Shown here: in pieces, positions 11,313 through 16,220 of the stretch
Layout: each line of letters begins with the position of its first letter
Numbering within the stretch: position 1 is the stretch's first letter
Origin: an uncultured Acidimicrobiales bacterium
GTDB lineage: Bacteria > Actinomycetota > Acidimicrobiia > Acidimicrobiales > SHLQ01
Direction of reading: 5' to 3'
NCBI GenBank assembly: GCA_938038815.1
Contig: CALHTF010000032.1
Coordinates: 62,001 to 126,000, forward strand
Length of the DNA: 64,000 bases
Notes under the pieces: model-generated
Databases searched by the model: none
The model's input: only the letters and a program-made list of their open reading frames with translations
Told to the model about the DNA's origin: nothing
Position numbers and translations under genes: made by a program

Positions 11313-11473
11313 TTACCTTGATGGGGGTGGGTCCGCTAACGCCAAGCTAGCGGCCCTATGTGAAATTCATCCGGTAGATCACGTTCGTTCGCCGATCGCG
11401 AATCCCGCGGTACTTGTTCACTCGCATCACCTACGGCACCTACTCGGCTAACCACCGAGTCGAGGAATTTTTC

Positions 11474-12271
11474 ATGCCCCAAAAGCCAAACGCCGGGTCG
11501 CCCCAAGACCGTCTCGGCGCCGCCGACTATCCCTACCTTGACCACGATGGACCGATCGCGTTCGCCCATCGCGGTGGCGCGAGCGCGGCACCCGAAAACA
11601 CGATGCCGGCGTTCCAACGGGCGGTCGACCTTGGCTACCGGTACCTCGAGACCGACGTCCACGCCACCGCCGACGACATTCTCGTCGCATTCCACGACGA
11701 CAAGCTCGACCGGGTAACCGACCGCGCTGGGGCCATTCGCGACCTACCATGGAGCGAAGTATCCAAAGCCCGGGTCGACGGACGCGAACCCATCCCGCTG
11801 CTCGCCGATCTCTTCACCGCATTCCCCGAGGCCCGAATCAACATCGACGCCAAGGCCGACTCGTCGGTCGAACCGTTGGTGAAAGCCATCATGGACCACA
11901 AGGCGCTCGACCGGGTGTGCGTTGGCTCGTTCTCCGACAGTCGACTGTCGACCATGCGCGACCGGCTCGGACCGCAACTGTGCACCTCGTTTGGACCCGC
12001 CGGGATCTTGGGGCTCACCACCGCCGCCCGAGGCCTCCCGAGCCGCATTCCGCCTGGCGCCTGTGCGCAGGTTCCGCCCGACTTCAACGGGGTCGACGTG
12101 GTTACCGAGGACTTTGTCGACCATTGCCACAGCCTTGGGCTAGCCGTACACGTGTGGACCATCGACGAACCCGACGACATGAACCAGCTCCTCGATCTCG
12201 AGGTCGACGGCATCATGACCGACGAGCCCCAAGTGCTGAAGACGGTTTTTCAAGCTCGCGGCATCTGGTAA
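11474..12271 (+). CDS. Glycerophosphodiester phosphodiesterase
   Basis: The protein has 265 residues and a GDPD TIM barrel. It shows His32-Arg33-Gly34 in AFAHRGGASAAPENT, the metal ligands Glu59 and Asp61 in YLETDVHAT, and the second His in VAFHDDKLDR (His74). The final barrel strand VHVWTIDEPDDMNQLL and the closing DGIMTDEP motif are present. It hydrolyses glycerophosphodiesters to glycerol-3-phosphate and an alcohol. No signal peptide is evident, so it is probably cytoplasmic. The ATG at 11474 is preceded by GAGGA; an upstream TTG at 11414 gives an unlikely extension. Confidence 0.9.
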   Translation: MPQKPNAGSPQDRLGAADYPYLDHDGPIAFAHRGGASAAPENTMPAFQRAVDLGYRYLETDVHATADDILVAFHDDKLDRVTDRAGAIRDLPWSEVSKARVDGREPIPLLADLFTAFPEARINIDAKADSSVEPLVKAIMDHKALDRVCVGSFSDSRLSTMRDRLGPQLCTSFGPAGILGLTTAARGLPSRIPPGACAQVPPDFNGVDVVTEDFVDHCHSLGLAVHVWTIDEPDDMNQLLDLEVDGIMTDEPQVLKTVFQARGIW

Positions 12272-12364: not shown

Positions 12365-13654
12365 GTGTTACTTCCTGGGCGATCGCGCATTTTGCGTGCC
12401 CTTCTTTGTCTCGTCTGCGTTACAACGCTGTTCGCAGCGACGCTCACCGCGCCCGTAAGCGCCCAAACGGGCGACGAAACCAGCACCAGCGACGGCGAAA
12501 CGAACGGTACCGACCTCGAAAACATCGGCGCCCTGGTCAAGGACCCGAACCTCAGCGAAGGGGTCGACGCGGTGGTCGCCACCAGCCCGGAATACGACCA
12601 AGCACTCGCCGACTTTGAACGCACGATCGAACTCATCGCCGAAGCCGAAGAGAACCTCGAGGCGGCAAAGCAGACGCTCGTTTCGATGGTCGCCACCCGC
12701 GACGAGATCCGAACCGACCTCGCGGTGCGGCGACGCGAGCGCCGAGTGCTTATTCGAGAACTCGACAAGATCGAGAACCACCTTCGCGAACTTGCCGTCT
12801 CCCAGTACGTCGGTTCGGGCGCTACTGAAGCAACCAACGCCATCGCCGGTCTCGACCCCGAACAACTCGCCTTGTCGGACCGGTCGTCGCATCTGATCGA
12901 AGAAGCCAGCGAGGTCAAGGTCGAGAACCGAGCCGTACTCGAAGCGACCCTCGAATCGCTCGACGCCGACCAACAGATCGATGCCGACCGACTCGCAAAG
13001 TTGGCCGAGAGCGTCATGCTCACCCAGAACGACATCGAGGACTGGTCGGCCGCGCTACTCGACAGCGAGACCCGGGTACCCGAACTTGCCGCCGAGGTCC
13101 GAGACCACCGCCTCTTGGCCATCGTGGTCGACCTCGAACTACCGGTCGTGGTTCTCGACGCCTACAACAACGCAGCAATCCGTAGCGAAACCCTGCATCC
13201 GGGTTGCGGCGTCGAATGGTGGATGCTAGCCGGTATCGGACGGGTGGAATCGGGTCACGGAACCTTTAAGGGGAGCGAGGTCACGGCGTCGGGCCGCACC
13301 ACCAACCCCATCATCGGCATTCCGCTCAACGGCGACTCCGAAACCGCAGTGATCACCGATACCGACGGCGGAACCCTCGACGGCGACCCGATCTTTGACC
13401 GGGCGGTCGGGCCAATGCAGTTCATTCCGTCGACGTGGGCCGGCAACGGACTCGACGGCAACGACGACGGATTCGTCGACCCCCACAACCTGTACGACGC
13501 TGCCTACGCTGCCGCCCATTACCTGTGCCGGACCGCAGGATCGGTAACCACGATCGAAGGACTACGGCGGGGCTACTTCGCCTACAACCACCACGACAGC
13601 TACGTGAACCTGGTGCTCGACTATGCGTTGGGCTACCGGGACTTCGAGTTCTAG
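12365..13654 (+). CDS. Secreted lytic transglycosylase-like protein with N-terminal coiled coil
   Basis: The protein has 429 residues and a GTG start (a TTG nine codons on is possible). It has a signal peptide (LRALLCLVCVTTLFAATLTAPVSAQ). A long coiled-coil stretch follows, roughly 75-265, resembling the helical spacers of NlpC/P60 and EnvC-like wall enzymes. The C-terminal SLT-like domain shows GCGVEWWMLAGIGRVESGHG, the catalytic-Glu context, then GPMQFIPSTW and YDAAYAAAHYLC. Such enzymes cleave peptidoglycan glycan strands outside the membrane. The coiled coil probably places the enzyme in a larger complex; the partner is unknown. Confidence 0.85.
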   Translation: MLLPGRSRILRALLCLVCVTTLFAATLTAPVSAQTGDETSTSDGETNGTDLENIGALVKDPNLSEGVDAVVATSPEYDQALADFERTIELIAEAEENLEAAKQTLVSMVATRDEIRTDLAVRRRERRVLIRELDKIENHLRELAVSQYVGSGATEATNAIAGLDPEQLALSDRSSHLIEEASEVKVENRAVLEATLESLDADQQIDADRLAKLAESVMLTQNDIEDWSAALLDSETRVPELAAEVRDHRLLAIVVDLELPVVVLDAYNNAAIRSETLHPGCGVEWWMLAGIGRVESGHGTFKGSEVTASGRTTNPIIGIPLNGDSETAVITDTDGGTLDGDPIFDRAVGPMQFIPSTWAGNGLDGNDDGFVDPHNLYDAAYAAAHYLCRTAGSVTTIEGLRRGYFAYNHHDSYVNLVLDYALGYRDFEF

Positions 13655-14599
13655 AGCCGAAATTCTGAAGCATCCACCAGTTGTGATCTAGCGGCCAGTA
13701 ATATTCCCGCTCTTTGTGGGTAAACCTGTGAACATCGCGGGTCGATCTGGGGATTTCTTCACAAGCCTGTGGAGCACTCTGGGGAAATCGGTTTTTACCT
13801 TGACTATCGGTCGGACGAGTGACAGTTTCGATCTTGTCGAGAGACGCAAGCGATCCGAAACCGGAACGACTGCGAATCGGGCAGCAAAGAACGAAAGCGG
13901 ATCTTTCGCTTGGGGAGGGCTTCGGCTCAATCTGAGTGGCTGGTCTGCCAGAAGTCGGAGCCGCCGGAGCCGTAGCCACCTGGTTGAGGTGAGCGAGCCG
14001 ATCGAAACACTCGAACCAAGACAAGCTAAACTCACCGGATGAACGGACGAGGTCAAGCGCAAAGGAACGGGGCTCTTCGGAGCACTGAACTCGAGCAATC
14101 GATCAAGACCCGGAAGCCACCGAGGGCGGCGAGTTGACCAGCTTGCACGTTGGGGTTGTCGAGAGCACTGCAGAACTTCACTGACGGGTGAGGGGCTCAT
14201 AGGGCTCAGAGATAACGCCGAGTTTGCAGTAGATTACGACAGGGCGAACGCCCAACTTCGACGGAGGTTGAGCCGACTACCTGGAGTGCCTGCCGCATAG
14301 CTGTTGCCACATGAAGAGACACAGATGGATCGCCGTCGGGCGGACCGGAGCGTCACTTCGAAGCGATTGGGGTCGCCCGATCACTGGACAACTCAGATCT
14401 GACCTGACGGAGTACGTGCCGAAAGGGCCAGAGGATCAAGAGGTCGGCTGCTTGCAGCTAACTTCCTCGAAATTCCGGGTCGTGCCGGAGGATCGAATGT
14501 TAAGGAACGTCCGAGACCCGAGGAGTTGAGCGGCGCAAGCTGCGAGGCTACTCGGGTCTCCTCTATTTTTCGCCCGACACCGTCTGCTAGAACACATCG
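13655..14599. other. ORF-poor interval, candidate structured RNA locus
   Basis: These 945 bases contain no convincing protein gene: the longest frames are arginine-rich shadows with no ribosome binding site. The interval has many short hairpins, for example AAGCG...CGCTT near 13890, CTGG-TCTG-CCAG near 13945, GGGC-GAAC-GCCC near 14254 and GCTGC-TT-GCAGC near 14445. It ends in the terminator-like hairpin at 14513-14569. I found no hallmark of RNase P RNA, tmRNA, SRP RNA or tRNA on either strand. I infer a transcribed non-coding RNA on + but cannot name it. Confidence 0.4.
14513..14569 (+). terminator. Strong intrinsic-terminator-like hairpin with no gene upstream
   Basis: A perfect 10-bp stem is formed by GAGACCCGAG (14513-14522) and CTCGGGTCTC (14551-14560). 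It encloses a nested stem capped by a GCAA tetraloop near 14534-14537 and is followed by CTCTATTTTT. This is the best U-tract terminator in the window, yet no coding gene ends just before it. Confidence 0.7.
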
Positions 14600-15367
14600 A
14601 TGGACGCCAACGATTTCGCCGACCGGCCCGGGACTGCTCTTGTCACTGGAGGGACCGGAGGTATCGGCGCAGCAATCTGCAAAATGCTGCATGCCCGCGG
14701 GGCAAAGGTCGCCTTTACCTACCGGTCGAATCATGAACGGGCGGCCGAGCTCCAGGCCGAGCTCGCACCTACCACCTACGGGCACTCGCTCGACCTCAAC
14801 GACTCCGAATCGGTCGCCGGATTTGTCGAAGGAGTGGTCGAACGGGTCGGCCCGATCCACACCCTGGTGCACGCCGCCGGACCAGAGGTGCGCCAAACCC
14901 ACCTCAGTAAGGTCAGCCCCGACCAATACCGAGAGGCGCTCGAGAACGAAGCTGCCGCCTTCTTTACCATCGCCCACCACGCACTCCCCCACCTGCGCGA
15001 GGCCAACGGCTCGCTCGTAGCCGTGACCACCGCAGCCACCCGCCGCTACCCGGTGCGAGACGGCCTGTCGTCGGGCACCAAAGCAGCGATCGAGGCAACC
15101 GTGAAAGGCCTCGCCGCCGAGGAAGGGCGCTTCGGGGTCCGAGCCAACTGTGTAGGGCCCGGCATGCTCACCGATGGCATGGCCGAACGCCTCATTGCCT
15201 CGGGCGAACTCGACGATGCAGCGCTCGACGTCACCCGAGCCAACATCCCGTTGCGCCGCTTCGGCCGCGCAACCGACATCGCCGAAGCGGTGTGCTTCCT
15301 CGCCTCGGACCGAGCAAACTTCATCACCGGCCAATGCCTAGACGTAGACGGCGGCTACACGGTCTAG
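14600..15367 (+). CDS. Short-chain dehydrogenase/reductase-like protein lacking the catalytic Tyr
   Basis: The protein has 255 residues and a FabG-like Rossmann fold. The cofactor motif TGGTGGIG (16-23), the HAAG motif (91-94) and a C-terminal DIAEAVCFLASDRANFITGQCLDVDGG match the classical SDR family. The active site is altered: the usual YxxxK reads S157-S-G-T-K161, and the catalytic Ser position, 13 residues earlier, is Thr144. The only nearby Tyr is Tyr150. It may therefore be a non-classical or inactive reductase; the substrate is unknown. It begins 30 nt after the orphan terminator and is followed by repeat copy A. Confidence 0.85.
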   Translation: MDANDFADRPGTALVTGGTGGIGAAICKMLHARGAKVAFTYRSNHERAAELQAELAPTTYGHSLDLNDSESVAGFVEGVVERVGPIHTLVHAAGPEVRQTHLSKVSPDQYREALENEAAAFFTIAHHALPHLREANGSLVAVTTAATRRYPVRDGLSSGTKAAIEATVKGLAAEEGRFGVRANCVGPGMLTDGMAERLIASGELDDAALDVTRANIPLRRFGRATDIAEAVCFLASDRANFITGQCLDVDGGYTV

Positions 15368-15498: not shown

Positions 15499-15723
15499 CT
15501 AGTCTTTGAGTGCCACGGCGTTGGGAGTGACGTTCATCTTTGGTTCGTAGGCGGCAGCGGTTACCTCGCGGGCCTCGCCGGCGTAGGTCGCCCGAAGCTC
15601 AGCCATGCAGCTCACACACGGGCCGTAGTACTCCTCGGTGACCGCCGTCGAGCACCGAGGGCAGTCAAAGGAATGCGGCTGGTTCGGCGCGCTCAAGAGT
15701 GAGTCGCTGGCGGTCTGTTCCAT
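15499..15723 (-). CDS. Small zinc-ribbon-like protein
   Basis: About 74 residues starting at MEQTASDSLL. Two CxxC pairs, Cys21-Cys24 (CPRC) and Cys36-Cys39 (CVSC), form a probable zinc ribbon around TAVTEEYYGP. The C-terminal half (AELRATYAGEAREVTAAAYEPKM) is probably helical. No function is known. I chose the ATG at 15723 because GGAAGG lies just ahead of it; the ATG at 15735 adds four residues. Confidence 0.65.
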   Translation of the reverse strand: MEQTASDSLLSAPNQPHSFDCPRCSTAVTEEYYGPCVSCMAELRATYAGEAREVTAAAYEPKMNVTPNAVALKD

Positions 15724-15735
15724 CTGGCCTTCCAT

Positions 15736-16028: not shown

Positions 16029-16220
16029 ATGGCGAACTACCAAATCACCCTCCGAGACGGCGTCCGGGAGAACATCACCGAAGCCGATGCCTATTGCCAA
16101 GAAGGAACGATGACCACCTTCTTCAAGACCAGCACCGACCGTCGAGTCATCGACAGTTGGTCGACTCGGCTCGCCAGCTTTCGCACCACCGAGGTCATGA
16201 CCATCAAGCGTTGTCTCTAG
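16029..16220 (+). CDS. 63-aa hypothetical protein
   Basis: Sixty-three residues: a beta-rich N-terminus (MANYQITLRDGVRENI), then ADAYCQEGTMTTFF, and a basic C-terminus (SFRTTEVMTIKRCL). The ATG has an AGGAG six bases upstream, which makes the start convincing despite the small size. The mix of strands and polar residues suggests a small cytoplasmic domain; no family function is known to me. It is preceded by an unusual CA-rich leader and followed within ten bases by hairpin repeat copy B. Confidence 0.7.
   Translation: MANYQITLRDGVRENITEADAYCQEGTMTTFFKTSTDRRVIDSWSTRLASFRTTEVMTIKRCL

Follow-up and report, generated by a model that had tools for sequence, protein, structure and literature searches.

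What is made from an intergenic gap that has a protein gene on either side and ends in a strong intrinsic terminator? The question is raised by positions 13655-14575 of a 64,000-nt stretch of DNA from an uncultured Acidimicrobiales bacterium (the window), which lie between a transglycosylase-like gene and an SDR gene on the + strand (Table 1). From the letters alone, the original prediction took the whole gap for a structured non-coding RNA locus without a credible ORF. Mechanical ORFs are present in the gap (170 aa on the - strand and 108 aa on the + strand), and no Pfam match was found for them. When they were compared by tblastn with three relatives of the same genus, only partial matches were obtained, several of them interrupted by stops. 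A protein-coding gene in the gap was rejected on these grounds, so the predicted lack of a credible ORF was borne out; neither Pfam nor the three relatives revealed the missed protein with homologs that had been named as evidence against an RNA.

The 3' end of the gap reads as described: a 10-bp stem (GAGACCCGAG at 14513-14522 and CTCGGGTCTC at 14551-14560) encloses a nested stem with a GCAA loop and is followed by CTCTATTTTT at 14561-14570. It had been argued that so strong a terminator with no gene before it implies a transcript other than an mRNA. A simple terminator scan found 3 sites in 3 kb where 2.6 were to be expected. By itself the terminator was therefore insufficient for this conclusion, and it is conservation that decides the matter and upholds it.

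Three genomes of the same genus (G001, G002 and G003) have a homologous gap at the same locus, preceded by the same gene. Counted from a conserved start, TTGTCGAGAGACGCAA, as far as the T tract, the RNA is 737 nt long in the window and 736, 729 and 733 nt long in the relatives, despite a strongly diverged middle. The MFE fold of 13800-14575 was more stable than that of shuffled sequences (z = -3.2, none of 20 shuffles equal), and the folds of two homologs gave z-scores of -3.6 and -3.4 (none of 20 shuffles as good in either case). The consensus fold of the four sequences contains 162 pairs, and its 5' end pairs with the segment just 5' of the terminal hairpin. On recounting, 92.9% of the cells were paired. 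Cells that had changed on both sides and still paired numbered 51, compared with 19.0 (sd 3.5) when the 3' letters were shuffled (0 of 500 shuffles as high) and with 6-9 when the partners were slid by 1-3 columns; without the terminal hairpin the count was 47 versus 17.5 (sd 3.2), all of these for a fold derived from the same four related sequences. A 7-sequence family alignment (A6) showed double changes in 11 of 182 predicted pairs, because its sequences are too alike, and an 11-sequence alignment, in which the terminator was shifted in part of the rows, was left out of the counts.

These results showed that 13834-14570 is a stand-alone gene of a predicted structured non-coding RNA. The claim of such a locus with an intrinsic terminator is supported by the position and length kept within the genus, by the compensatory changes and by a hairpin that covaries across the order. 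The RNA does lie inside the interval first proposed for it; the first part of that interval (13655-13833) is a control region, and the RNA starts near 13834.

Table 1. Predicted features of the RNA locus and its neighbouring genes (window positions)
Feature	Position	Strand	Basis or remark
GDPD gene	11414..12271	+	commonest neighbour in common (36/114 loci)
Transglycosylase-like gene, SLT_2	12365..13654	+	Pfam PF13406; upstream of the RNA
Two outer DnaA-box-like sites, TGTGGGTAA (13715-13723) and TGTGAACAT (13727-13735)	13715..13735	+	sequence
Inner boxes TGGGGATTT (13748), TGTGGAGCA (13768) and TGGGGAAAT (13780)	13748..13788	+	conserved in the genus
Promoter: -35 TTGACT (13800-13805), 17-bp spacer, -10 CAGTTT (13823-13828)	13800..13828	+	consensus match
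Structured non-coding RNA, ~737 nt	13834..14570	+	homologs of 736, 729 and 733 nt; MFE z -3.2; covariation
Long-range closing helix, 5' strand	13846..13876	+	consensus columns 13-44 pair with 667-692
Long-range closing helix, 3' strand (CCGGGTCGTGCCGGAGG...)	14475..14500	+	consensus structure
Terminal hairpin CCCGAG-R-AGY..RGCU-A-CUCGGG and U-rich tail	14513..14570	+	terminator and family signature; order-wide matches
SDR gene	14600..15367	+	downstream of the RNA
Small zinc-ribbon-like protein (weak match)	15499..15735	-	convergent with the RNA in relatives

The neighbouring genes were compared to see what travels with the RNA. The SLT_2 gene adjoins it across the genus and in some other families. 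In the window, 30 bp separate the terminator from the start of the SDR gene on the same strand, and no match to this gene was found beside the RNA at any of the three same-genus loci. It is therefore outside the RNA unit, and it seems to have been inserted or moved here. When two locus sets were pooled with their overlaps still in (114 loci), the neighbours most often found were the GDPD gene (36 loci), the transglycosylase-like gene (13) and the convergent small gene (11), and clustering of conserved neighbours gave a signal blurred by antisense ORFs. The remaining loci are flanked by different genes, which argues that the RNA is an independent unit. Further downstream in the window, a gap at 16029-16220 (+) may encode a 63-aa small protein (MANYQITLRDG...), and 131 nt inside it have 80% identity in one same-genus genome (G001).

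How far does the RNA reach within the order? Its body can be aligned only within families, so there is no order-wide full-length model, and among 198 genomes a model of the 5'-terminal 109 nt recovered no more than two of the same genus plus three weak matches. The 3' end is kept much more widely. Of 198 genomes in the order, 50 were matched by a covariance model covering the last 132 positions. A second model, 59 positions long and derived from 32 hairpins, gave matches in 145 of 397 genomes, as a rule one match in each. The consensus of the hairpin is CCCCGAG-R-AGY ... GA-stem-loop-stem-GA ... RGCU-A-CUCGGGG, with an R.A mismatch and a GA/GA internal loop. Among the 32 hairpins, 94.2% of the cells were paired and double changes occurred at 11 of 19 pairs, and none of 500 shuffles was as high by any measure. 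Several inner letters are nearly invariant in these 32 sequences. Since the hairpin is conserved in sequence beyond its pairing, it probably binds a protein as well.

A search for the array-plus-promoter pattern described below matched 98 of 397 genomes, some matches resembling coding sequence; five of them belong to the same family (genus g5) and have no hairpin-model match. Twenty places were fetched and 18 of them read. At 12 of the 18 we found a different conserved 3' module, namely a compensating hairpin followed by GGUGGAY and a terminator of its own, with double changes at 5 of 10 predicted pairs of the hairpin. Eleven loci of this kind were searched with Rfam, and nothing scored above gathering. 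Places missed by the hairpin model can thus carry a sister form of the RNA that differs at its 3' end. Downstream of the RNA in genus g5 lies the gene of a small protein that by eye resembles an S4-type RNA-binding protein.

The promoter was predicted from its consensus match, and its position is conserved in the genus and in the order. Starting from 122 loci, we kept 84 that had the hairpin, a sufficient promoter score and a distinct promoter sequence. At these the RNA is 159-745 nt long and the promoter has the form TTGAC, usually 17 bp, CANNNT, the spacer being exactly 17 bp in 67 of 84. Ahead of the promoter lies a row of boxes on the same strand, with the sequence TGKGGA or TGTGNAYAA. Relative to the -35 hexamer of the window, the inner boxes stand at -52, -32 and -20, in agreement with the order-wide histogram, and the outer boxes, which read TGTGAATGA / TGTGTATAA in the homologs, stand at -85 and -73, in phase with the order-wide array. 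Over the order the box starts gather at about -21, -32, -53, -74, -85, -96 and -107. The phasing is strong: at a period of 10.7 bp, 238 sites in the 84 loci gave a vector strength of 0.926, where the null reached at most 0.225, and 67 less redundant loci still gave 0.918.

The boxes are also strongly enriched. The 82 upstream regions contain 183 TGGGGA against 15.5 expected and 18 TGTGNAYAA against 0.2 expected, and TGKGGA occurs 212 times on the promoter strand (+) but 6 times on the - strand, counts that are not independent since the loci are related; 165 control windows contain 12 TGGGGA. At least two boxes were found in 68 of the 84 loci, a set in which promoters were picked partly by nearby boxes. 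Under a strict rule blind to boxes, one promoter was recovered at 71 of 116 hairpin loci, 55 of which still have at least two boxes, and none was recovered at the other 45. Boxes are missing altogether from 12 of the 84 loci, so at some loci the array can be dispensed with. The -10 hexamer differs between the two groups: its first base is T at 5 of 72 loci with boxes and at 6 of 12 without (p = 7e-4). A weak first base where boxes are present is what one would expect if the boxes serve an activator that offsets the weak hexamer.

Which protein reads the boxes? The promoter has clustered DnaA-box-like sites, as is typical of DnaA-regulated promoters. The usual DnaA box is TGTGGATAA. TGGGGA deviates from it, yet it is the commoner form in the array. 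For 14 genomes of the order we counted both forms over the 350 nt that follow dnaA and found TGTGGA 32 times (3.6 expected) and TGGGGA 31 times (3.9 expected). The flanks of these dnaA-dnaN boxes lean to A/T, like the flanks in the array and unlike those of control sites. This enrichment makes DnaA, or another protein that prefers the same sites, the most likely activator of the RNA promoter. The locus as the replication origin itself was rejected. On chromosome-sized contigs, the hairpin is about 1.44 Mb from dnaA of 3.59 Mb in one genome (G189), 1.05 of 3.8 Mb in another (G254) and 2.33 of 4.94 Mb in a third (G278), so the RNA locus, more than 1 Mb from dnaA in all three, is not oriC.

Taken as a whole, the explanation that we favour, with moderate confidence, is a large RNA gene whose phased boxes are read by a protein that prefers DnaA sites and whose product would work together with protein, away from its own locus. 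A protein with the site preference of DnaA, most likely DnaA itself, would occupy the helically phased same-strand boxes, in a row that would end about 15 bp ahead of the -35 hexamer. The bound protein would activate a promoter whose -10 is weak at its first base (CANNNT), and the transcript would fold into a closed multi-helix RNA ending at the sequence-conserved hairpin. Work in trans, as an RNA-protein particle, would be our guess for what follows. The body varies from 159 to 745 nt while the array and the 3' module stay, which argues that the working parts may be the timing of synthesis and the partner of the 3' end. A more far-reaching version, possible rather than probable in our view, is that ATP-DnaA on an array far from oriC switches on an abundant RNA whose 3' hairpin binds RNA polymerase, the ribosome or DnaA, and so ties the initiation of replication to global expression throughout the order.

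Other readings of the same locus have to be weighed against the DnaA-read RNA gene. The boxes may bind an activator other than DnaA, such as a regulator of stable RNA, a reading that we regard as unlikely but which deserves attention. It would account for the dominance of TGGGGA in the array, where position 3 of TGKGGA is G in 85%, while TGGGGA and TGTGGA are equal at dnaA-dnaN, and a 10.7-bp phasing suits any cooperative activator; against it, TGGGGA is strongly enriched at dnaA-dnaN too, and the outer sites conform to TGTGNAYAA, which has the same free position as DnaA boxes. DnaA-titrating and DnaA-reactivating loci such as datA and DARS suggest another reading, in which the locus is primarily a DNA element and the RNA a by-product. 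Clustered DnaA-like boxes distant from dnaA agree with this, but the boxes lie nearly all on one strand and are locked to the promoter, and the transcribed region has compensatory changes and a conserved 3' module, so that we consider a DNA element quite improbable. That the RNA is a long leader, or an attenuator, for the gene downstream is hardly to be expected at all: the short distance from the terminator to the SDR gene on the same strand would fit it in the window, but SDR is unmatched near the RNA in the three relatives, the downstream genes vary between families, and at the same-genus loci the next common gene runs convergently on the other strand. The differing downstream genes and the convergent one argue that the RNA is not the leader of the next gene.

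It is also very improbable that the locus holds a known RNA in diverged form (6S, Ms1, RNase P, tmRNA, SRP RNA, a group I or II intron, or OLE, GOLLD or ROOL), although its size, ornate fold, usually single copy and terminator resemble them. Rfam covariance models found no match in the window at gathering and none at E<=5 in 13600-14640, and 34 related loci gave none at the limits used, with 3 weak matches far below the gathering scores. In the original prediction, hallmarks of RNase P, tmRNA or SRP RNA had been sought without success, which agrees with the lack of an Rfam match here and with the place of these RNAs on other contigs of the same genome (C43, C40 and C13, respectively; the window is on C32). 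No match to 6S RNA (RF00013) was found in the window or the related loci, 6S RNA being a single long hairpin with a central open-promoter-like bubble; the consensus fold of the four sequences is multi-branched with a long-range closing helix. OLE, GOLLD and ROOL, as commonly described, share the size class and the ornate, long-range-closed fold, but their Rfam models gave no match in the window, and the present RNA varies from 159 to 745 nt. This large structured RNA of the order is absent from Rfam. In the open-licence literature we found no report of such an RNA in Acidimicrobiia or Acidimicrobiales, or of one linked to DnaA boxes.

The nearest published cases are RNAs of other lineages. Ms1, as its paper describes it (PMC9130861), is a 6S-like RNA of about 300 nt that adjoins HAD hydrolase genes; like ours it is a stand-alone actinobacterial RNA found through conserved context, but here the neighbours are SLT_2, GDPD and SDR genes and the RNA has 737 nt, and the main text of that paper contains no word beginning with Acidimicrob. 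CoRP of Corynebacterium, according to its description (PMC11077062), has 516 nt, binds RNA polymerase and has close homologs only within the genus. Compared by description, both are large structured intergenic RNAs of an actinobacterial lineage with close homologs in near relatives only, but CoRP lies between tRNA genes in Corynebacterium and was shown on RNA polymerase, whereas the present RNA is known from sequence, has protein-coding neighbours in another order, and occurs order-wide with phased boxes. Because Ms1, on the core enzyme, and CoRP are bound to RNA polymerase in other actinobacterial lineages, RNA polymerase can be named as the partner here, a doubtful guess against which we count both the Rfam result and the fold, in which no 6S-like open bubble was seen among the four sequences. 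CcnA of Caulobacter is likewise a non-coding RNA gene linked to replication-control boxes, but in the passages that describe it (PMC8959179) it has 182 nt, lies within the origin and is presumably activated by CtrA, whereas the present RNA is far from dnaA.

Sponge RNAs such as CsrB and RsmZ have numerous small hairpins, GGA-rich single strands and variable length. The present RNA resembles them in all three respects, but a CsrB-type sponge was rejected since CsrA (PF02599) is missing from the genus (absent from 4 of 4 genomes) and lacking in 35 of 40 genomes searched.

The locus therefore adds an order-wide large structured RNA outside Rfam, in which a control region and a 3' module are fixed and the body varies freely. 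If DnaA reads the array, the initiator would control a non-coding RNA far away from the origin, and it could be tested at one promoter whether replication is linked to global regulation. The array, the promoter and the terminal hairpin together provide a signature by which such RNAs can be traced when sequence searches fail.

Hairpin matches were also found outside the order, in 29 of 296 genomes in all, the best outside the class having E 5e-9; they are treated as leads and excluded from the member count. A separate scan listed at least 80 named public loci, whose contigs are partly identical to those of the genome set. By eye, 47 titles of the 80 listed read Acidimicrobi-, Ilumatobacter- or Microthrix, 22 are other actinobacterial ones and 11 are others, several of which resemble chance matches or misnamed contigs. 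In two contigs with Chloroflexi titles, the hairpin ends a stretch of 273 and 350 nt, respectively, after a TTGACA-17-TATNNT promoter without boxes; either the hairpin has spread beyond the phylum or these bins are mislabelled. Elsewhere in the phylum, in different classes, a similar mismatch hairpin and a terminator come almost directly after a TTGAC promoter, and these short forms look like the RNA reduced to about 55 nt. One genome (G297) carries two tandem copies of the hairpin about 355 nt apart, each with a promoter-like site.
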